In this document: positions 2,570 through 19,025 of the stretch, piece after piece
How positions within the stretch are numbered: position 1 is the first letter of the stretch
Layout: each line of letters opens with the position of its first letter
Virus record (IMG/VR): IMGVR_UViG_3300025687_005878
Coordinates: 1-20,984 of that record
Source of the DNA: a virus
Reading direction: 5' to 3' (one strand)
DNA: 20,984 bases
The notes under the pieces: model-generated
Told to the model about the DNA's origin: nothing
What the model saw: the letters and a program-made list of their open reading frames with translations, nothing else
The model's database searches: none
Position numbers and translations under genes: made by a program

Positions 2570-3414
2570 TTGGATTTAATCATCTCGGCAATCTAGGCAG
2601 ACTGGGAAACCAGATGTTTGAGTTTGCCGCTCTTCGTGGTATCGGAGAAAAACATGGATATGAGATTTGCATTCCTCCAGCAGAACATGAGGGTATTGAA
2701 AACTACAGTCTTCATCAGTGTTTTAAGTTGGATCACGTTCGGACTGGATTTGTCGAAGCACAAACTTATGCTCAAGAACAGTACTTTCACTTTAATGAAA
2801 ATCTATTCGAGACTTGTCCTGATAATTTGAGTCTTTATGGATTCTTTCAATCAGAAAGATATTTTGCTCATGCTGCAGATGTTATCAGAAAAGACTTTAC
2901 ATTTCATGATGATATTATCGCACCTTGTTTTGAATTTATACAACAATTTCTTTCTGAAGAACCAATCATGCTTCACGTTCGTCGTGGAGATCCAAACTTG
3001 ACTGATCCTCGTGGATTTAAGTGGTCTTATACTCAGTGTGGGGATCAGCATCCTGTTCAACCATTGTCTTATTATGAAGAGGCACTTTCCCACTTTAGTG
3101 ATACTCAACCTGTAATTGTTTTTTCTGATTCTCCTGAATGGGTTAAGGAACAAGAGTTCTTCTCTGGTGATCGATTCATGATTTCAGAACCACAAGAAAA
3201 ATATAAAGATGGATCATATACTCCATATACAGATCTTTGCTTGATGTCTTTGTGTTCTCATGCTATAATTGCAAATAGTTCCATGAGTTGGTGGGGTGCT
3301 TGGTTGCAATCGAATCCATATAAAAAAGTAATCGCACCTAAAATGTGGTTTGGTCCTGCATACAAGGACAAAAATACAAAAGATCTTTATTGCCCTAATT
3401 GGATAACACTATGA
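2566..3414 (+). CDS. GT11 alpha-1,2-fucosyltransferase-like glycosyltransferase (copy 1)
   Basis: Glycosyltransferase of 282 residues in the GT11 family, whose known members move fucose from GDP-fucose to a galactose or related acceptor in an alpha-1,2 linkage. The N-terminal signature is GRLGNQMFEFAALRG. The nucleotide-sugar motif is HVRRGD (His137 to Asp142), followed by VIVFSDSPEW and the C-terminal IANSSMSWWGAWL. The normal Tyr after RRGD is Pro here. No signal peptide or membrane helix is visible, so it acts in the cytoplasm. It is clearly paralogous to the gene at 8748-9530 (shared SLYGFFQ, SWWGAWL and IAPK-WFGP segments). It overlaps both neighbours by 4 nt. The sugar donor could differ from GDP-fucose; the family is secure and the linkage is inferred. 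Confidence 0.9.
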   Translation: MIGFNHLGNLGRLGNQMFEFAALRGIGEKHGYEICIPPAEHEGIENYSLHQCFKLDHVRTGFVEAQTYAQEQYFHFNENLFETCPDNLSLYGFFQSERYFAHAADVIRKDFTFHDDIIAPCFEFIQQFLSEEPIMLHVRRGDPNLTDPRGFKWSYTQCGDQHPVQPLSYYEEALSHFSDTQPVIVFSDSPEWVKEQEFFSGDRFMISEPQEKYKDGSYTPYTDLCLMSLCSHAIIANSSMSWWGAWLQSNPYKKVIAPKMWFGPAYKDKNTKDLYCPNWITL

Positions 3415-8751: not shown

Positions 8752-9530
8752 TTGGTTCTAATTACATTGGCAGGAATGGGCGCTTTGCCAATCAAATGTT
8801 TCAGTATGCTGCTTTGATGGGTATTGCAGCAAAGCATGAGTATGACATCTGCATTCCTTCTGGTCCGAAGACTGAGGAGGAATTTACTGATGAAGAGAAT
8901 CAGCACAAACTCTTTATGGCATTTGATTTAAGTGCCAGAGAAGGAGCAGGTTTTATGGAGTATAGACAAGAAAAGTCATTTACTTTTGATCAAGAACTAT
9001 TTGATACTTGTCCTGATCACATTAGTCTGTATGGATTTTTTCAGACAGAAAAATACTTCAAGCATATTGAAGATGAGATTCGCAAAGAGTTTACCTTCAA
9101 AGAAAGTATTCGCAAAGCATGTGAAGAGTCATTCCCATTTGAAGATGCTATCTCTTTGCATGTTCGTCGCAGCGACTATGTTCAAAAACAAAGTTATCAT
9201 CCCCTCTGTCCTCTAGAATATTATGAAGCAGCATTGGAGAAACTTCCTAAAGATGTACCAGTTATCATCTTTTCTGATGATCCTGAGTGGTGTATGAATC
9301 AAGATTTATTTCAACCAGATAGATTTAATGTATCCGAAACATATAATAACCTTATTGACATGTGTTTAATGACAATGTGTAGTTTTCATGTTATTGCTAA
9401 CTCATCATTCTCTTGGTGGGGTGCATGGTTGGCAGATAGTGCAAAGGTGATTGCACCAAAGGTTTGGTTTGGTCCTCAAGCAAATCTTGATGATAGCGAT
9501 CTTGTTCTTAAGTCTTGGGAGAGAATCTGA
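8748..9530 (+). CDS. GT11 alpha-1,2-fucosyltransferase-like glycosyltransferase (copy 2)
   Basis: Second canonical GT11 enzyme, 260 residues. The opening is GRFANQMFQYAALMG, and the nucleotide-sugar motif is HVRRSDY (His138 to Asp143 plus Tyr), with Ser replacing the usual Gly. VIIFSDDPEWC and ANSSFSWWGAWL complete the family pattern. It is paralogous to the gene at 2566-3414, sharing start context (MIG), SLYGFFQ-E-YF and the C-terminal IAPK-WFGP block, but is diverged throughout, so the two copies may have different acceptors. It overlaps the DUF5672-like gene by 4 nt and shares one base with the next start. Likely cytoplasmic. Confidence 0.9.
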   Translation: MIGSNYIGRNGRFANQMFQYAALMGIAAKHEYDICIPSGPKTEEEFTDEENQHKLFMAFDLSAREGAGFMEYRQEKSFTFDQELFDTCPDHISLYGFFQTEKYFKHIEDEIRKEFTFKESIRKACEESFPFEDAISLHVRRSDYVQKQSYHPLCPLEYYEAALEKLPKDVPVIIFSDDPEWCMNQDLFQPDRFNVSETYNNLIDMCLMTMCSFHVIANSSFSWWGAWLADSAKVIAPKVWFGPQANLDDSDLVLKSWERI

Positions 9531-10288: not shown

Positions 10289-11093
10289 TTTAGAAAAAGC
10301 AACATTTATTGTACCTATTCGCATTGAGTCTGATGATAGACTTAGAAATGTTATTACAATAGTAGCATTTTTGCTTGAAAACTTTAATACGAATATCATC
10401 ATAAAAGAAGTTGATTCTTATTCTGTATTTCAGGAGAAAGCAGTTCCTATTTTAAAAGAAATACTTGAGGAAGATATTAATGTAAAACATATTTTTCATA
10501 AAGATGATAAACCTTTGTTCCATCGACAAAGAGTTTTGAATGAGATGATTATGGAATCAGATACTGAAATAGTCGTTAATTATGACTGTGATGTGTTGCT
10601 TCCAATTTATTCTTATTATCATGCTTATGAATTGATTTTGAATAAAACATATGATGTTGTATATCCATATTCTGAAGGAATGTATCAATATCAAGTAAAG
10701 GCAGATGACGAAGTAGTTTCTGAATTTTTGCAGGATTATAATTTTTCTTGTTTAGATAAAAATTCAAATTTACATACTTCTGATTTTGGTTGGGTTCAAT
10801 TTTTCAATCGTCAAGTTTATATTGAAGGTGGTATGGAAAATGAAAACTTTAAAGCATATGCACCAGAGGATAAGGAAAGATTTTACAGATATAATACTTT
10901 AGGGTATAATGTGGGAAGAGTAGATGGATATGTCTATCACTTAGAACATATAAGGGGGCAGAATTCCTGGTTTAATAATCCACATATGGATATTAATATG
11001 AGTGAATGGGATAAGATTCAGAAAATGAACAAAGAACAACTTTTAGATTATTACCAAAAGCAATTTTATTTGAAAAAATATGGACAAAAATAA
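10278..11093 (+). CDS. GT2/GT27-like glycosyltransferase
   Basis: Protein of 271 residues with a GT-A type organisation. An N-terminal strand ATFIVPIRIES is followed by an acidic VVNYDCDVLLP (DxD motif) after a FHRQRVLNEMI helix. A C-terminal GWVQFFNRQVYIEGGMENENF block then resembles the Galactosyltransferase C-terminal region (GG(M/F)-E-F) of GT27 and chondroitin-polymerase-like enzymes, with APEDKER downstream. AGGAAA at 10265-10270 precedes the ATG by 7 nt, and the gene overlaps its upstream neighbour by 11 nt and the downstream GT25 gene by 14 nt. Its stretch is more AT-rich than its neighbours. Donor and acceptor are unknown. Confidence 0.75.
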   Translation: MKINLEKATFIVPIRIESDDRLRNVITIVAFLLENFNTNIIIKEVDSYSVFQEKAVPILKEILEEDINVKHIFHKDDKPLFHRQRVLNEMIMESDTEIVVNYDCDVLLPIYSYYHAYELILNKTYDVVYPYSEGMYQYQVKADDEVVSEFLQDYNFSCLDKNSNLHTSDFGWVQFFNRQVYIEGGMENENFKAYAPEDKERFYRYNTLGYNVGRVDGYVYHLEHIRGQNSWFNNPHMDINMSEWDKIQKMNKEQLLDYYQKQFYLKKYGQK

Positions 11094-11865
11094 ATCTGCG
11101 TATAAACTTCAAGGTATTCCTCCCATTTATTATTTGAACTTGGATGGTCAGGAAGATCGAAGAGAATACATGGAATCTCAGATGAAATACTGGGAGATTG
11201 GAAACTATGAACGTATTTCTGCATACGATGGCAGGTTTGACGATCTTAGTGATATTATCAAGGGCAAGTATCCAGAAAACATGACTTCTGGTGAGATTGG
11301 TTGTACTACCTCTCACCTCAAGGCAATCAAGCATTGGATGGAAACATCTGATTCTCCATGTGCTATTTTTATGGAAGATGATGTTGACCTTCAAATTGTT
11401 AAGAATTGGGATTTTACTTGGAAAGATTTTTATGGATTAATTCCATATGACTATGATGTCATACAGTTAGCGATAATTTGCACTGGCCCACTTCATGTTA
11501 CCTTACACAAAAGGTTTGTTAATGATTTTTCTACTGCTGCATATATGATCACTCGTCATCATGCGGAGAAACTACTTAGACATCATGTTCGTGGAGATAA
11601 GTATAAGTTGGATCAAGGTATTAAACCTCGTGCAGTTGCAGATGATTTGATTTATAATTCTGGAAATACTTTTTCTATCCCCTTATTCTTATATAAAATT
11701 TCTTTGGGTTCATCTATTCATCCAGAACATGTTGATTTGATTCACAGGCAAAATTATAATGGACTTCTGGAGCATTGGCAAATAAAAGGTCCAGACATGG
11801 ATATCAAAAGTCTTATGAATTATGATCCATATCTAGGAAGAATTACAGAAAATCCTCCAGGATAA
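11080..11865 (+). CDS. GT25 (LPS-type) glycosyltransferase
   Basis: Glycosyltransferase of 261 residues of the GT25 family, known for galactosyl/glucosyl transfer in LPS core synthesis. The N-terminal YYLNLDGQEDRREYM, the middle SGEIGCTTSHLKAIKHW and the acidic AIFMEDDVDL (EDDV metal/nucleotide-sugar site) are the family's three characteristic blocks in the correct order. AAYMITRHHAEKLL follows in the position of the usual GYLIS segment. It overlaps the previous gene by 14 nt and is the last gene of the glycan operon: a terminator begins 40 nt after its stop. Likely cytoplasmic, acting on the lipid-linked or protein-linked acceptor. Confidence 0.9.
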   Translation: MDKNKSAYKLQGIPPIYYLNLDGQEDRREYMESQMKYWEIGNYERISAYDGRFDDLSDIIKGKYPENMTSGEIGCTTSHLKAIKHWMETSDSPCAIFMEDDVDLQIVKNWDFTWKDFYGLIPYDYDVIQLAIICTGPLHVTLHKRFVNDFSTAAYMITRHHAEKLLRHHVRGDKYKLDQGIKPRAVADDLIYNSGNTFSIPLFLYKISLGSSIHPEHVDLIHRQNYNGLLEHWQIKGPDMDIKSLMNYDPYLGRITENPPG

Positions 11866-11904: not shown

Positions 11905-11932
11905 AAGAGGTGCTTGACACCTCTTTCTTTTT
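11905..11932 (+). terminator. Rho-independent terminator of the glycan operon
   Basis: An 8-bp perfect stem, AAGAGGTG (11905-11912) pairing with CACCTCTT (11918-11925), encloses a 5-nt loop CTTGA. It is followed by a T-rich run TTTCTTTTT (11924-11932). It sits just downstream of the GT25 stop, where the glycan operon should end. The loop and 3' arm contain the -35 element of the next promoter, so terminator and promoter share bases. Confidence 0.85.
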
Positions 11933-11942
11933 GCTATATAAT
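11914..11942 (+). promoter_or_regulatory. Consensus sigma70 promoter for the photosynthesis cassette
   Basis: A perfect TTGACA (-35, 11914-11919) and a perfect TATAAT (-10, 11937-11942) are separated by exactly 17 bp. Transcription would start near 11949, leaving a leader of about 20 nt before the hli ATG. This predicts early/middle expression by host RNA polymerase, in line with a role during infection rather than in the virion. No T4-type late motif is seen here. Confidence 0.9.
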
Positions 11943-11969
11943 TGTGTAACAGTTCTTTACAAAACTACA

Positions 11970-12173
11970 ATGACCGTAACAACTAATGACCGTGGTCAAA
12001 TGAATATGTGGGCGAAAGAACCACAAATGGTATATGAAGAATACAATCGTAAGGGTTTGATGACCCCGATGCAAAGCACCGAAATGTATAACGGTCGCTG
12101 GGCAATGATGGGAATCATTTCTGGGTTGACATCTTATTTGATTACTGGTAAACTGTTCTTTGGTATTTTCTAA
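11970..12173 (+). CDS. hli: High-light-inducible protein (Hli/ELIP-like)
   Basis: Small photoprotective thylakoid protein of 67 residues with one transmembrane helix. The C-terminal block EMYNGRWAMMGIISG carries the chlorophyll-binding ExxNGRxAMxG motif of the LHC/Hli family, followed by a hydrophobic stretch ending KLFFGIF. Hli proteins bind pigment and protect photosystem II or newly made chlorophyll proteins from excess light; many cyanophages carry host-derived copies. The ATG at 11970 lies about 20 nt after the predicted transcription start; an upstream in-frame TTG at 11910 would lie inside the terminator/promoter and is rejected. No Shine-Dalgarno is seen, as is common for leader-short cyanobacterial genes. 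First gene of the photosynthesis cassette. Confidence 0.95.
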   Translation: MTVTTNDRGQMNMWAKEPQMVYEEYNRKGLMTPMQSTEMYNGRWAMMGIISGLTSYLITGKLFFGIF

Positions 12174-12185
12174 GTATTTTTACCT

Positions 12186-12476
12186 ATGGCATACAATGTT
12201 ACTCTCCGCACTCCCGACGGCTCCGAGACCGTCATTCAATGTGAGGAGGATCAGTACATCCTTGAGGCTGCTGAAGAAGCAGGTGTTGACCTTCCTTCAT
12301 CGTGCAAAGCAGGCGCTTGCTCCGCCTGTGCTGGCAAACTGATTGAAGGTGAAGTTGATAATGAAGAACAGTCCTTCCTGGACGACGATCAAATCGCAGA
12401 AGGTTGGGTGCTGACTTGTGTCGCATATCCCAAGTCTGACTGCACCATCCTTACCGAGCAAGAAGAAAACCTTTAA
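12186..12476 (+). CDS. petF: Plant-type 2Fe-2S ferredoxin
   Basis: Ferredoxin of 96 residues, the soluble one-electron carrier that accepts electrons from photosystem I and passes them to ferredoxin-NADP reductase, bilin reductases and other enzymes. The four cluster ligands fit the plant-type spacing C-x4-C-x2-C-x29-C: Cys40, Cys45, Cys48 ([12 protein letters not shown]) and Cys78. An additional Cys19 is present. The length equals that of cyanobacterial PetF and the acidic composition is typical. It follows hli by 12 nt, under the same promoter, and overlaps the next small gene by one base. Phage copies are thought to redirect electrons to phage-useful reductases (known from cyanophage biology; not shown here). 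Confidence 0.95.
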
Positions 12477-12559: not shown

Positions 12560-12678
12560 AAAAATTCGGATTCACCCCTGAGGCAGAGATCCTCAATGCA
12601 CGTCTGGCAATGATTGGTTTCGTTGCTGGTGTTGGTGCTTACTTTACCACTGGTCAATTGATTCCTGGCGTATTCTGA
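12556..12678 (+). CDS. hli: Short high-light-inducible protein (Hli)
   Basis: Second Hli-type protein, only 40 residues. EAEILNARLAMIGFVAG matches the ExxNxRxAMxG chlorophyll-binding helix (Asn and Arg kept; Ala replaces the Gly of NGR), followed by hydrophobic residues and the ending QLIPGVF. It is close to the minimal length of a functional Hli helix and resembles the short phage Hli proteins of marine cyanophages. The ATG at 12556 forms an ATGA overlap with the preceding membrane peptide, and its stop overlaps an in-frame ATG of the next ORF. It probably forms dimers or pairs with the first Hli in the thylakoid membrane to protect photosystems (family knowledge). Confidence 0.92.
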   Translation: MKKFGFTPEAEILNARLAMIGFVAGVGAYFTTGQLIPGVF

Positions 12679-12679
12679 T

Positions 12680-12685
12680 GGAGGT
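12680..12685 (+). promoter_or_regulatory. Shine-Dalgarno GGAGGT deciding the peroxiredoxin start
   Basis: GGAGGT ends 4 nt before the ATG at 12690. The alternative in-frame ATG at 12678 would place this site inside the gene, so 12690 is preferred as the start. It is one of only two such strong ribosome sites in the window. Confidence 0.8.
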
Positions 12686-12689
12686 AAAA

Positions 12690-13217
12690 ATGCGTAAAGA
12701 ACAGTATCAAGTCCCCCAAGTAGAATTTGTATTCCGTGAAGATGGAGAGTTTGTTGCTAAACCTTCCTTGGATCTCTTCACTGGTAAGCGTGTGGTTATT
12801 TTTAGTCTACCTGGTGCATTTACTCCTACTTGCAGTGCTTATCAACTCCCTGGATTTGAAGAGCAGTATGAAGAGTTTATTCAACTTGGTATCGATGATA
12901 TTTACTGCATCTCTGTTAATGATGGTTTTGTGATGAATGCCTGGGCCAAAGAGCAGGGCATTGAAAAAGTAAAACTTATCCCCGATGGAAATGCTTTCTT
13001 CACTCGCTCAATGGGTTATCTGGTCAACAAATCCAATCTCGGTTTTGGTCAGCGCAGTTGGCGTTATGCTGCTGTGGTTGAGAATGGAGTCATTGAAAAG
13101 ATGTTCGTTGAAGACGGTATGCGTGACAACGCAGACACCGACCCATACGAGGTATCAACACCCGAAGCAGTATTAGAATACGTTAAGTCAACTGTCAGGG
13201 AACCCGCATCTGTTTGA
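12690..13217 (+). CDS. Prx5-like peroxiredoxin
   Basis: Thiol peroxidase of 175 residues that reduces hydrogen peroxide or organic peroxides in the cytoplasm. FSLPGAFTPTCSAYQLPGF carries the peroxidatic Cys48 with the conserved Pro41 and Thr45 of the PxxxTxxC active site; the third active-site residue is the Arg in QRSWRYAAVV (Arg125). A further cysteine, Cys73 in IYCISVNDGFVMNAW, matches the Prx5 branch rather than AhpC. The start at 12690 follows a strong GGAGGT. It closes the photosynthesis cassette and probably removes peroxide formed under light stress during infection; a terminator follows within 21 nt. Confidence 0.92.
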   Translation: MRKEQYQVPQVEFVFREDGEFVAKPSLDLFTGKRVVIFSLPGAFTPTCSAYQLPGFEEQYEEFIQLGIDDIYCISVNDGFVMNAWAKEQGIEKVKLIPDGNAFFTRSMGYLVNKSNLGFGQRSWRYAAVVENGVIEKMFVEDGMRDNADTDPYEVSTPEAVLEYVKSTVREPASV

Positions 13218-13237: not shown

Positions 13238-13269
13238 AACTCTGTCCTATATACAGGGCAGAGTTTTTT
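13238..13269 (+). terminator. Rho-independent terminator after the peroxiredoxin
   Basis: A 10-bp stem, AACTCTGTCC (13238-13247) with GGGCAGAGTT (13256-13265), contains one G-T wobble and an 8-nt loop TATATACA. It runs into TTTTTT (13264-13269). It ends the photosynthesis/redox cassette and isolates it from the structural genes. Confidence 0.9.
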
Positions 13270-13460: not shown

Positions 13461-16400
13461 GTGGCACTTAAGAAACCATCGGAATTTTTTAAAGTAAATA
13501 AAATTTCTTCTATTAATGAAGAAGTGGAGAAAATTTCAAAAGATCTTCAAGATGATAATCTTGAGGAAAAAATTTCAGCGTCTTTTAGTAATATTGATGG
13601 TGTTTTTTCGGATATTCAAAGACAACTTCAAGAGTCTAGTGACAATAAAATAAAAGTAGTAAAGGATGAAATAGTAAAACTTTACAAGGTAGTAGATAAT
13701 ATTGTTGAAAATGATATCCCAAAATATAAAAAACACTTAAGTACTACTGAACTTCGTGTTGAGAGTAGAATTAAAAATTTAAAAGATGAACTTTGCGAGC
13801 ATTTAGATTGTCAGGTAAAGAGCACTAGAAATAAGATAGAAGAATTATATAAAGAAACTCTTGATGAGGAACTTTTTAGTGCCAGAAAATTTGTTAAGGA
13901 TATATATCGATCTGAAATTCAAATTGCAGTTGAGAAATATGTTTCCACTTACTCAGAAGATATTGTTTCGCTGAGGGAAGAACTGCTTAGTGAAATTAAA
14001 AAAAGACCAAAAACTTTAGTACATATAGAAACTAAGTTAGAAGAACTTTCTAAAAAATATAGAGTTTTATCTGAAAATCTAAACAACATTGAAACCAATG
14101 ATCCTCTTTTAAATACAAATCCAATAACATTAGAGCAGTTAAAAACACATTATCAGATACTTGTTGGTAGACTTCAAGAGCAACTCGCCTCTCTTGGTGG
14201 TGGCGGTGAAGTTCGCCTTGAATTTCTAGATGATGTTGATAGGAATTCTGCAAAAGTTAATGGTAAGTTTTTAAAATATGATAGTTCAGTTGGTAAGTGG
14301 ATTGGTGCAGACGCTAGTGGCGGTGTATCTGATATTGTCGATGACTTAACACCACAACTTGGTGGTGACTTAGACCTCAACGGTAGTGATATTACTGGTA
14401 CAGGTAATATTAATATCACTGGTGATGCAAGAATTGCTGGTATCCTGACTGTTGGAACTGGATCTGTAACTATAAATGGCAATGATGATTCAATAACTAT
14501 TGGTAATAATTTAACCATTACTTCTTCGGGAAACGCTGAATATTCTGGAGTTGTTACTGCAACCTCTTTTTCTGGTGATGGTTCAAATTTAACTGGAGTT
14601 ATTACTAGTTTAAATGGTTATGCAACTGAAGCGTATGTAGATCTCGCAGTTGCTGGAGTTAACACATTCACTGGTGCTGCTACCAGTATCACTGCAACTC
14701 AGATAGTAAATTGGGACACTGCTTATAGTTGGGGAGATCACTCAATTGCTGGATACGTTACCTCTATTTCATTAGTAGGTTACGCAACAGAAGGATATGT
14801 CGATAATGCTGTCTCTGGTGTCTCTACCTTCTCTGGTGACTATGCAGATTTAACAAATAAACCCACGATTCCATCTGATACTGGAGACCTTACTAATAAT
14901 GTTGGATTCATTACCGCTGGGTCTTTAGTTGGTTATGCAACAGAAACTTTTGTTAATAATGCAGTTGCTAATTTAGTTGATAGTGCTCCATCAACGTTGG
15001 ATACTCTTAATGAATTAGCTTCTGCTTTGGGAGATGACCCAAATTTTGCAACAACTATTACTACTTCTTTAGGGAACAAAGCAAATTTATCTGGAGCATC
15101 TTTTAGTGGAGTTGTTACTGCAACTTCTTTTGTTGGCGATGGTTCAAATTTAACTGGACTTTCCACTTTCTCTGGTGACTATGCAGATTTAACAAATAAA
15201 CCTACTATCCCCTCAGATACTGGAGACCTTACTAATAATGTTGGATTCATTACCGCTGGATCTTTAGTTGGTTATGCAACAGAAGGATATGTTGATAATG
15301 CTGTAGTTGGTTTTGTTACTTCGGGTATTGTAGTTGGTTATGCTACAGAGGGGTATGTTGATAACGCTGTCTCTGGTGTTTCTACCTTCTCTGGTGACTA
15401 TAATGATTTGACAAATAAACCCAGTTTGGGTGATCTTTCTGATGTTAGTTCTTCTACTCCTTCTGCAGGGCAAGTTTTAAAGTGGTCTGGTTCTGAATGG
15501 CAACCTGCTGCAGATCTCACTGCTGCTGGTGGAAGTGGTATTGGATTGACAGATTTATCTGTAGTTGTAAATTCTGCTGGAATAAATTCTTTAAGTTATA
15601 GTAACATAACTGGTGTCTTTGAATTTACCCCCACATCACTAGTAGGATATGCCACCGAAGGTTATGTTGATAATGCTGTAGTTGGTTTTGTTACTTCTGG
15701 AATCGTAGATGGGTATGCAACAGAAGTTTATGTTAATAATGCTCTAGTTGGTTATGCAACAGAAGGATATGTTGATAATGCTGTAGTTGGTTTTGTTACT
15801 TCTGGAATCGTAGTAGGATATGCAACAGAAGGATATGTTGATAATGCTGTAGTTGGTTTTGTTACTTCTGGAATCGTAGTAGGATATGCAACAGAAGGAT
15901 ATGTTGATAATGCTGTTTCTGGTGTCTCTACCTTCTCTGGTGACTATGCAGATTTAACAAATAAACCTACGATTCCATCTGATACTGGTGATTTAACTAA
16001 TAGTGTTGGATTCATTACCGCTGGGTCTTTAGTTGGTTATGCTACGGAGGGGTATGTTGATAATGCTGTAGTTGGTTTTGTTACTTCGGGTATTGTAGTT
16101 GGTTATGCAACAGAAGGATATGTTGATAATGCAGTAGTTGGTTTTGTTACTTCTGGAATCGTAGATGGGTATGCAACAGAAGTTTATGTTAATAATGCTC
16201 TAGTTGGTTATGCGACAGAAACTTTTGTTAATAATGCAGTTGCCAATTTAGTTGATAGTGCTCCAGGGACTTTGGATACTCTTAATGAGTTAGCCGCTGC
16301 TTTAGGAGATGACCCAAATTTTGCAACAACTATTACTACTTCTTTAGGGAACAAAGCAAATTTATCTGGAGCATCCTTTACTGGAATTACCACTATTAGT

Positions 16401-19025
16401 CAACTAAACGTTACTGGTATTTCTACGTTAGGAGTTACCACTGTAACTGACCTAACAGCACAACAGATAAATGTTTCTGGGATTGTTACTGCTACTAGAT
16501 TTGAAAGTTCTTCTACTGGAACTCCAACTATTGATTCCCCCAATAATATAAACATTAATGCTGTTAATGTTGCAATTAGTACAGATTTAACTGTTGGTAG
16601 GAATCTTTATACAAGTGACTTTAATGCTACAGGTAATGCTGAGGTATCTGGAATTGTCACTGCGACTACTTTTGCTGGAAGTCTTACTGGTAATTCTACT
16701 ACAGCAACTTCTTTACAGACAGCAAGAACTTTTGAAATAACTGGAGATGTTGTTGGACATGCAGTATCTTTTGATGGTACTGGAAATGTTTCTATTGCAG
16801 CAACTATTCAACCAGATAGTGTTACATTGGGTCAAGATACTACTGGTATTTATGTTGCTTCTATTTCTGGTACTTCTGGGGAAATAGAAGTATCTGGTTC
16901 TGGAAATGAACAGTCATCAGTTACGATTGGTCTGCCCGATTATGTTACAGTAACGGGAATTAACGCTTCTGGTATTGTTACTGCCACTACTTTCACTGGT
17001 GATGTAATTGGTAATGCGACATCTGCTACTGTATTACAAACCTCAAGAAATATTGGTGGTGTTTTATTCAATGGTTCTAGCGATATTGATCTTCCTGGTG
17101 TTAATCTTCCTGGCAATCAACCAATTAATACTTCTGGTGTCATTACTGCAACCACCTTTAGTGGATCTGGTGCTTCTTTAACATCTATCCCTAATGGTGC
17201 TCTTAATAACTCATCAGTTTCTTATGGTGGTGTAAGTCTAGCACTAGGTGGAACTGATGCTACACCAGCATTTGACCTATCTGATGCAACTAATTATCCT
17301 TATACAAGTCTCACTGGTATTACCACAGAAATCGTAGGAGACACAACACCACAATTAGGTGGCAATTTAGATCTTAATAGTAAGAATGTTACTGGCACTG
17401 GTAACTTTAATGTAACTGGTGTTATTACTGCTACCACTTTTGTTAAGTCTGGTGGCACATCATCACAGTTCTTGAAAGCAGACGGTACTGTCGATAGCAA
17501 CACTTATCTAACTGCTGAGGCACAAACTCTTGATGGTGTCTTAACACTAGGAAACACATCAAGTAATGGAATGAGTGTTGGTGTCGTCACGGCATCTTCA
17601 TTTATCAGGTCTGGTGGCACATCGTCACAGTTCTTGAAAGCAGACGGTACTGTCGATTCAAGCACCTATCTTACATCAGCACTACAGAATGTTGTAGAAG
17701 ATACTTCTCCACAATTAGGTGGCAATTTAGATCTTAATAGTAATGATATAACTGGTACTGGTAACATTAATATTACTGGTAGTGTAGAAGCAACTGGTGT
17801 TTCTACATTTAGTGATACTGTAAACATAATAAGTTCTAATGTTTATTTCACCGAAGGTTTTAATATTTTAACTCCTCTTGGTCACACAATGGTGAACCTT
17901 GGTTCATCTAGCGTTGGCATCTTTAATAGGGACTTTAGAGTTTCCAATAAAGATTTTTACGTAGAAAATTTATTTAATAATGATAGACCTTTCTTTGTTG
18001 ATAATACTGGTTCATCTGATCCAAGTAAGGTAGGAATTAATAGTTCAACACCAAGATCAGAACTTGATGTTCGTGGAAATCTGATTGTCTCTGGTATTTC
18101 TACACTAGGAGTTACCACTGTAACTGACCTAACAGCACAACAGATAAATGTCACTGGTGTTTCTACAATAGGAGTTTCTAATAACCAAATTATTTTTACA
18201 ACAGATGGCGGGCTTGGTGCAATACAAAGCGCATCATCCTCTGGGTTAAAAATTCAAAGGGGAACAACAGATACAATTAATATTAATACTGGTCAAGTAA
18301 CAATTACAAATCATGATTTAAGTGTAAATGACAATAGCAGAGTAGGATCTGCTATCGCAATGTACGGTGCTACTGGCATTGTAAGTGCAACTCAATTTGT
18401 TGGTGATGGATCTGGATTAACTAATATTGTTTCCACTGGAGTTGGAGTTCAAGTACAAAATGAAGGATCACCAGTAGGAACCGCTGCAACAATTAACTTT
18501 ACAGGATCATTAATTGATGCTACACTAAGTAATGGAGTTGCAACAGTTAGTGTTTCTGGTGTTGGTACTGGAACATACGCTTTTACTTATGGTACTCTTA
18601 CAACACTTACTACTAATTATGCCGTTACTGGACTTGTTGGAAACATAAAACCAACTTCTGCGAGCAGTAAGGTAATGGTTACGGTTACTATTCCAGTTTA
18701 TATGAATTCTTCTAATGTTGGTCAATTACAACTAATGGAAATTGCTTTGACAAGATATAATGGATCCCAGGATATAATTCAATATTCAGCATATGCTGGA
18801 GACTGGGATGCAGGCATATCTGCTACTGCTAGAAAGGATATTGGTCAAACTATCTCATTCTCATACTTGGATTCGCCAGCATCTGCATCTAATCAAATAT
18901 ATAAAATATATGCCAGAGCGCAAAACACCAATGGGAATTACTATGTATTCACTGCACTTGATTTTGCAAATACAGGGAGTCTTATATCAAAAGGTGGACA
19001 AATGACATTAGAGGAAAGGAGTTAA
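13461..19025 (+). CDS. Long tail fibre protein with repeat modules
   Basis: Virion protein of 1854 residues, expected to be a trimeric tail fibre that contacts the host surface. Residues 1-240 are charged and heptad-like, consistent with a coiled-coil baseplate-attachment part; the opening MALKKPSEFF resembles other cyanophage structural proteins. At 245-290 is an FLDDVD-VNGKFLKYDSSVGKWIGAD fibre motif. From about residue 385 to 920 come GYATEGYVDNAVVGFVTSGIV and STFSGDYADLTNKPTIPSDTGDL repeats, and GDLSDVSSSTPSAGQVLKW. Residues 920-1690 hold GIVTATTF, QLGGNLDLN and SGGTSSQFLKADGTVDS repeats, typical beta-helical fibre modules. The last 150 residues form a distinct beta-rich C-terminal domain, a likely receptor tip; no self-cleaving chaperone (S74) motif is seen. 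The start is GTG, with only a weak purine-rich upstream region. Confidence 0.92.
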   Translation: MALKKPSEFFKVNKISSINEEVEKISKDLQDDNLEEKISASFSNIDGVFSDIQRQLQESSDNKIKVVKDEIVKLYKVVDNIVENDIPKYKKHLSTTELRVESRIKNLKDELCEHLDCQVKSTRNKIEELYKETLDEELFSARKFVKDIYRSEIQIAVEKYVSTYSEDIVSLREELLSEIKKRPKTLVHIETKLEELSKKYRVLSENLNNIETNDPLLNTNPITLEQLKTHYQILVGRLQEQLASLGGGGEVRLEFLDDVDRNSAKVNGKFLKYDSSVGKWIGADASGGVSDIVDDLTPQLGGDLDLNGSDITGTGNINITGDARIAGILTVGTGSVTINGNDDSITIGNNLTITSSGNAEYSGVVTATSFSGDGSNLTGVITSLNGYATEAYVDLAVAGVNTFTGAATSITATQIVNWDTAYSWGDHSIAGYVTSISLVGYATEGYVDNAVSGVSTFSGDYADLTNKPTIPSDTGDLTNNVGFITAGSLVGYATETFVNNAVANLVDSAPSTLDTLNELASALGDDPNFATTITTSLGNKANLSGASFSGVVTATSFVGDGSNLTGLSTFSGDYADLTNKPTIPSDTGDLTNNVGFITAGSLVGYATEGYVDNAVVGFVTSGIVVGYATEGYVDNAVSGVSTFSGDYNDLTNKPSLGDLSDVSSSTPSAGQVLKWSGSEWQPAADLTAAGGSGIGLTDLSVVVNSAGINSLSYSNITGVFEFTPTSLVGYATEGYVDNAVVGFVTSGIVDGYATEVYVNNALVGYATEGYVDNAVVGFVTSGIVVGYATEGYVDNAVVGFVTSGIVVGYATEGYVDNAVSGVSTFSGDYADLTNKPTIPSDTGDLTNSVGFITAGSLVGYATEGYVDNAVVGFVTSGIVVGYATEGYVDNAVVGFVTSGIVDGYATEVYVNNALVGYATETFVNNAVANLVDSAPGTLDTLNELAAALGDDPNFATTITTSLGNKANLSGASFTGITTISQLNVTGISTLGVTTVTDLTAQQINVSGIVTATRFESSSTGTPTIDSPNNININAVNVAISTDLTVGRNLYTSDFNATGNAEVSGIVTATTFAGSLTGNSTTATSLQTARTFEITGDVVGHAVSFDGTGNVSIAATIQPDSVTLGQDTTGIYVASISGTSGEIEVSGSGNEQSSVTIGLPDYVTVTGINASGIVTATTFTGDVIGNATSATVLQTSRNIGGVLFNGSSDIDLPGVNLPGNQPINTSGVITATTFSGSGASLTSIPNGALNNSSVSYGGVSLALGGTDATPAFDLSDATNYPYTSLTGITTEIVGDTTPQLGGNLDLNSKNVTGTGNFNVTGVITATTFVKSGGTSSQFLKADGTVDSNTYLTAEAQTLDGVLTLGNTSSNGMSVGVVTASSFIRSGGTSSQFLKADGTVDSSTYLTSALQNVVEDTSPQLGGNLDLNSNDITGTGNINITGSVEATGVSTFSDTVNIISSNVYFTEGFNILTPLGHTMVNLGSSSVGIFNRDFRVSNKDFYVENLFNNDRPFFVDNTGSSDPSKVGINSSTPRSELDVRGNLIVSGISTLGVTTVTDLTAQQINVTGVSTIGVSNNQIIFTTDGGLGAIQSASSSGLKIQRGTTDTININTGQVTITNHDLSVNDNSRVGSAIAMYGATGIVSATQFVGDGSGLTNIVSTGVGVQVQNEGSPVGTAATINFTGSLIDATLSNGVATVSVSGVGTGTYAFTYGTLTTLTTNYAVTGLVGNIKPTSASSKVMVTVTIPVYMNSSNVGQLQLMEIALTRYNGSQDIIQYSAYAGDWDAGISATARKDIGQTISFSYLDSPASASNQIYKIYARAQNTNGNYYVFTALDFANTGSLISKGGQMTLEERS
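14928..15104 (+). repeat. 177-bp fibre repeat, copy 1
   Basis: This block encodes VGYATETFVNNAVANLVDSA through NKANLSGASF (59 residues). Copy 2 at 16203-16379 has only a few differing residues and long runs of identical DNA, pointing to recent internal duplication or repair between copies. Confidence 0.85.
15267..15398 (+). repeat. 66-bp tandem repeat units in the fibre (first array)
   Basis: One full 22-residue unit (VGYATEGYVDNAVVGFVTSGIV at 15267-15332) is followed by a partial copy from 15333, which diverges into the STFSGDY module. Same unit as the larger arrays downstream. Confidence 0.85.
15642..15938 (+). repeat. 66-bp tandem repeat array in the fibre (second array)
   Basis: Full 66-bp units start at 15642, 15747 and 15813, with a partial unit at 15879. 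A 39-bp spacer module (DGYATEVYVNNAL, 15708-15746) separates the first two. DNA identity between units is very high, including the third codon positions. Confidence 0.9.
16032..16202 (+). repeat. 66-bp tandem repeat array in the fibre (third array)
   Basis: Units start at 16032 and 16098, followed by the same 39-bp DGYATEVYVNNAL module (16164-16202). The 105-bp unit-plus-module at 16098-16202 is a copy of 15642-15746. Confidence 0.88.
16203..16379 (+). repeat. 177-bp fibre repeat, copy 2
   Basis: Second copy of the block at 14928-15104, placed directly after the third 66-bp array. The differences are conservative (for example SAPS to SAPG and ASAL to AAAL). Confidence 0.85.

Follow-up and report, generated by a model that had tools for sequence, protein, structure and literature searches.

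How can one short stretch of DNA close one operon and open the next? The question is raised by positions 11905-11942 of the window, the whole 20,984-base virus record analysed here, where a predicted terminator and a consensus promoter are written in the same bases. The record belongs to a T4-like cyanophage, and its best matches were Synechococcus phages in which the genes are similarly ordered. In this study, both signals, their overlap, the conservation of the promoter, the covariation of the stem, a trade-off in the -35 box, a link to the direction of the upstream gene and an excess in whole genomes were established by computation. These patterns suggest that transcription terminates and initiates at the element, and that the gain would be insulation from read-through in little space. 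Taken together, the fused terminator and early promoter very probably form a compact boundary element that insulates the early operon from upstream read-through.

Two signals on one stretch of DNA

The element lies between a block of glycosyltransferase-type genes, which ends at 11865 with a GT25-type gene, and a hli-ferredoxin-peroxiredoxin operon. This location had been given in the initial annotation of the sequence, and it was borne out by gene family matches.

11080..11865, + strand: GT25-type glucosyltransferase gene, last of the upstream block (phrog_2835, E 2e-120)
11970..12173, + strand: hli, high-light-inducible protein gene (phrog_178, E 9e-29)
12186..12476, + strand: ferredoxin gene (phrog_844, E 2e-45)
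12678..13217, + strand: peroxiredoxin gene (phrog_2281, E 3e-74)
13238..13265, + strand: ordinary terminator-like hairpin closing the hli-ferredoxin-peroxiredoxin operon (11 pairs, T-rich tail)

The likely start of hli is the ATG at 11970, and the family match of the resulting 67-aa protein begins at residue 1. An alternative, longer hli reading frame starts with GTG at 11910, within the hairpin. After the redox operon, positions 13461-19025 encode a tail-fibre-like protein of 1,854 aa with many near-identical internal repeats.

The hairpin reads AAGAGGTG-CTTGA-CACCTCTT, with 8 pairs, 4 of them G-C, and a loop of 5, and its 3' tail is TCTTTTTG. The initial annotation had claimed that terminator and promoter share bases here, and its coordinates proved exact. 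The -35 box is split: TTGA belongs to the loop of the hairpin, whereas CA is part of its 3' arm. The T-run falls within the spacer.

11905..11925, + strand: predicted terminator hairpin, arms 11905-11912 and 11918-11925, loop CTTGA 11913-11917 (letters, folding, covariation in relatives)
11914..11919, + strand: -35 box TTGACA, spanning loop and 3' arm of the hairpin (letters; TTGAC in 81/83 upstream regions)
11926..11933, + strand: T-rich tract of the predicted terminator, also part of the promoter spacer (letters; T content in relatives)
11937..11942, + strand: -10 box TATAAT, 17-nt spacer (letters; relatives)
11948..11950, + strand: predicted transcription start, about 7 nt past the -10 box (promoter geometry)

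A G-C-rich hairpin followed by a T-run, the mark of an intrinsic (Rho-independent) terminator, was found at 11905-11933. The folding energy was -10.0 kcal/mol for the hairpin alone and -15.3 for a 71-nt stretch (z -1.58). TTGACA-N17-TATAAT (11914-11942) was the sole 12/12 promoter among 57 promoter-like sites in the window, and the exact pattern TTGACA-N16..18-TATAAT occurred once there and 0 times in the reversed control. As a class, promoter-like sites showed no excess in the window (57 vs 71.4 expected), and terminator-like sites showed a mild one (15 vs 9.3 expected). Because these class-level counts are near expectation, the window by itself is modest evidence and the comparative data are decisive. 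No T-run facing the opposite direction, as in a bidirectional terminator, was seen by eye at the hairpin. A known structured RNA family was dropped as a candidate, since Rfam 15 gave 0 matches in the window at the gathering threshold.

We propose that RNA polymerase leaving the GT25 gene would transcribe the hairpin and halt near 11932, within the T-run. That T-run would also serve as the spacer of an early promoter of the host sigma70 type, with its -35 box in the hairpin loop and 3' arm, and the hli-ferredoxin-peroxiredoxin RNA would begin near 11949. The two roles can coexist because termination calls for a stem that pairs, whatever its letters, together with a free loop and a T-run, and initiation calls for TTGAC and TATAAT, set apart by 17 nt of nearly any sequence.

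The hli leader carries an inverted repeat, TGTAA-N-TTACA, at 11945-11961, directly past the -10 box. At this place, GTAA-N3..10-TTAC was present in 36 of 65 hli leaders (letter shuffles: mean 0.4, max 3), and a repeat of the TGTAA-N-TTACA type was missing from the non-hli fused promoters listed. It is possibly an operator or a 5'-end RNA element specific to hli.

Promoter and hairpin upstream of hli in related phages

Relatives were collected by protein searches (best 80 of 263 hli, 80 of 576 ferredoxin and 80 of 536 GT25 loci), and extra loci came, among the matches listed, from a DNA pattern scan requiring a T-run. The loci collected held 129 hli starts, which gave 83 distinct upstream regions and 65 clusters at 90% identity. 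A promoter, consisting of TTGAC and a TATAAT-class -10 box, was present in 81 of the 83 regions. By the rule used, it was missing from L112 and L116, and L116 has a separate hairpin. We scored a hairpin as fused when at least 6 pairs, at least 3 of them G-C, were looped around TTGAC. Such hairpins were found in 32 of the 65 clusters, pattern-scan loci included. As the pattern scan demands a T-run, the count was redone on a non-redundant set of 59 loci, from which six clusters known solely from pattern-scan loci or a whole named record had been removed; here 27 loci had a hairpin around TTGAC. The fused element also preceded hli in the named isolates S-PM2, S-CAM1, S-CAM3, S-BM3, S-H9-2 and S-RIM32.

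When the letters of the 5' arm were shuffled, hairpins formed at a mean of 1.2 and a maximum of 5 of these 59 loci. Swapping the 5' arms between loci gave a mean of 13.0 and a maximum of 19, about half as many hairpins as observed, because G-runs and C-runs are common by descent. Since 27 lies above the swap maximum, the pairing is locus-specific, though it comes partly from these common runs. At hli, the predicted promoter is nearly universal and the predicted terminator is conditional. Among the hairpin-less loci, L022, L029, L030, L039, L048 and L118 have a G-run just 5' of TTGAC and no C-run or T-run after it; they may be decayed terminators, or the G-run may have a separate role.

The stems at hli loci differed in sequence (GGGGTG/CACCCC, GAGGGG/CCCCTC, GGGGGC/GCCCCT, GGCAGG/CCTGCC and others). 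The hairpin register varied too, with CTTGA, TTGAC, TGAC or other letters in the loop, and TTGAC was kept throughout. Covariation was tested on 14 sequences of the CTTGA register. Two-sided changes were found in 13 cells, against 5.5 ± 1.5 in shuffles (0 of 500 shuffles), and the covariation score was 0.342, compared with at most 0.191 when the partner was slid. Two of the five covariation measures, pairs with a two-sided change and further pair types, were not above shuffles.

The sixth base of the -35 box was A in 11 of 27 fused loci vs 29 of 32 hairpin-less loci (p 6e-5). Where the stem requires a different letter, this base yields to pairing, a trade-off that supports the earlier claim that the shared bases constrain both signals. 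T made up 7.6 of 10 in the spacer of fused loci and 4.4 of 10 in that of hairpin-less loci. If both signals are used as predicted, the element clearly shows how, in nature, two independent selections can act on a single short piece of DNA, with the trade-off visible at a common base.

A palindrome over the -35 box is a common place for an operator. The inverted repeat could therefore act at the DNA level, as the operator of a dimeric repressor bound over the -35 box, with no terminator involved. We rejected this reading, which is highly improbable, because the arm letters vary between loci while pairing is retained. Moreover, a T-rich tract follows the hairpin, and the presence of the hairpin tracks the direction of the upstream gene, as described below.

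Upstream genes and fused elements across cyanophage genomes

If the hairpin is a terminator, it is expected where the upstream gene reads into hli. The upstream gene was co-directional at 25 of 26 fused loci vs 14 of 32 hairpin-less loci (p 1.5e-5); one fused locus, L049, had no callable upstream ORF and is omitted from this table. In a strict set, limited to upstream ORFs of at least 100 aa lying at most 120 nt away, the counts were 21/21 and 7/16 (p 9e-5). These Fisher p-values overstate independence, since the divergent loci are related, 6 of the 9 in the strict set having the same upstream gene family. At L010 the fused hairpin is decayed, and a strong, separate terminator lies 26 nt upstream. 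The fused hairpin was absent in S-H9-1, S-RSM4 and S-WAM2, where the upstream gene is annotated as divergent. DSL-LC03, S-8S29, S-IOM18, S-TIM5 and Syn9 were contrary cases, in which the feature upstream is co-directional but a fused hairpin is absent; in S-TIM5 a separate hairpin is present instead. The initial annotation had proposed to see whether relatives conserve both signals together. They keep the arrangement, but the signals do not always occur together: the promoter is found in 81/83 regions, and the hairpin in 27/59 loci, following the direction of the upstream gene. The initial annotation had also called the element a switch, which implies a regulated choice, but a boundary, or insulator, explains the data.

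A regulatory effect could nevertheless arise if polymerase terminating in the spacer covered the -35 and -10 boxes, so that upstream transcription silenced the early operon. Steric overlap is unavoidable by geometry, as the predicted stop falls between -35 and -10. How strong the effect is would depend on the arrival rate of upstream polymerase, however, and a promoter that simply adjoined the terminator would be subject to a large part of it too. We regard such interference as unlikely. In another form of coupling, the terminated polymerase would stay on the DNA, gain sigma and restart, so that the upstream operon feeds the downstream one. Available excerpts report that E. coli polymerase remains on DNA after intrinsic termination and reinitiates nearby in vitro (PMC6978380), and raise adjacent-promoter coupling as a possibility (PMC6978322). 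By eye, from C-termini, the fused loci had at least six kinds of upstream gene, and this great diversity argues against specific coupling; we consider the relay quite improbable. Both occlusion and polymerase recycling can hold alongside insulation, and the element offers a natural template for testing blocking against recycling of terminated polymerase at an overlapping promoter.

Fused elements were also sought on both strands of five cyanophage records (~1.08 Mb). We found 447 promoters of at least 10/12 and 19 terminator-promoter fusions. Six dinucleotide shuffles gave 307-338 promoters, with 1, 0, 2, 1, 0 and 1 fusions. For promoters of at least 11/12, hairpin loop centres peaked at the -35 box, with 13 falling at 0-9 nt and 4 in the preceding bin; the other 10-nt bins had 0-5. 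Each record had 2-6 fusions with different stems, the six being in G011. Since the ungapped scan misses hairpins with an inner stem, these counts are low estimates. A chance overlap of two common motifs finds some support in the window, where promoter-like and terminator-like matches are common, and 2 of the 19 genome fusions, both in G004, resemble chance. Recurrence, covariation and the excess over shuffles stand against it; for the class, chance was rejected by the shuffles, and we find it hardly credible.

Of the remaining genome fusions, three preceded hli; others stood before plastocyanin and mostly small unknown genes, and four came after a PstS-like gene (names by eye). Among the pattern-scan loci, the fused format also stood before non-hli genes, for example in a CobS-like/glycosyltransferase-like gap (names by eye). 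At 9218 on the - strand of L418 (G011), and also in L374, a plastocyanin-like gene stands behind the fused element AAGGAGGGG-CTTGA-CCCCTTCTT, which is of the hli-like kind and has an unrelated upstream gene. In several cyanophages (L370, L371, L372 and L376), TTGACA lies in the 3' arm of a longer hairpin, one with an inner stem, in the gap separating an Hsp20-like from a conserved gene.

A wider reading would make the fused element a general early-operon format of T4-like cyanophages, in which the stopping of one operon would directly determine the output of the following one. This is doubtful at present. If true, coupling would act by promoter blocking during termination or by handover of the terminated polymerase, and the device would have evolved repeatedly around a fixed TTGAC loop, at hli, at plastocyanin and behind host-derived genes such as pstS. 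As an insulating boundary, the element would offer a simple way of recognising operon borders in the genomes of cyanophages.

Comparison with known systems

To judge from its letters, the closest known kind of element is the PeSL (promoter-early stem-loop) of T4-like phages, of which the cyanophage form would be a variant. Arbiol et al. 2010 and Comeau et al. 2014 are said to have described PeSLs as composite promoter-terminator motifs of T4-like phages that mediate shuffling, and PeSLs reportedly occur as several similar copies per genome that act as exchange points. They likewise reportedly join a terminator hairpin and a strong sigma70-type early promoter in one short stretch at operon borders. 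In the present case, we found a strong sigma70-type promoter (12/12 in the window; 81/83 relatives) and a stem-loop with a T-run that adjoins and overlaps it.

By analogy, the element could persist as a recombination cassette whose repeated copies are exchange points between genes. The variety of genes upstream of the hli element fits this reading, as does the shuffling ascribed to PeSLs. However, stems differ within one record, as among the six in G011, so there is little homology, and the neighbours of hli could have been exchanged by other means. We therefore hold a cassette role to be distinctly unlikely and continue to favour insulation.

Titles and abstract openings in the literature covered gave no account of such an element upstream of hli in cyanophages; it may have been described before, in the PeSL or Syn9 transcriptome papers. 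No fused element appeared in the available parts of a Mycoplasma transcriptome paper (PMC4245973) or a cyanophage genome comparison (PMC3037559), the latter placing predicted promoters and terminators around each of the nine pstS genes. In an excerpt, Puxty et al. reported few PeSL signals for the part of S-PM2 that they examined (PMC4503421). S-PM2 has one fused element at hli, and our scan suggests composite terminator-promoters at several loci per cyanophage genome, though they are called sparse around that region. Cyanophage early promoters, in the part of the report available (PMC2984593), are likewise of the sigma70 type, with a host-type motif upstream of early genes, but are reported there without a base-sharing terminator. 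In the excerpts on polymerase reinitiation (PMC6978380, PMC6978322), a terminator likewise lies near a promoter that it is able to feed, but the elements are separate and on designed templates, whereas here they overlap.

No fused copy was found in the scanned stretches of T4 and KVP40 (~50 kb each). Three PeSL copies of RB49 are tandem, with the hairpin, the T-run and then TTGACA 12-16 nt past the hairpin. Vibrio phage nt-1 (L368) has three near-identical copies, at 3116, 17086 and 44632, which read AAAAGGGTTGAC-ANAT-GTCAGCCCTTTT and run directly into a -10-like box. Because they abut this box, the -35 box belongs to the stem, and TTGACA lies inside the hairpin, on the 5' arm and loop. The fused idea thus already occurs in one or more of the phages in which PeSLs were studied. 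In the cyanophage form, by comparison, the -35 box lies in the loop and 3' arm, the stems differ by locus, and the hli copy is fixed in place.
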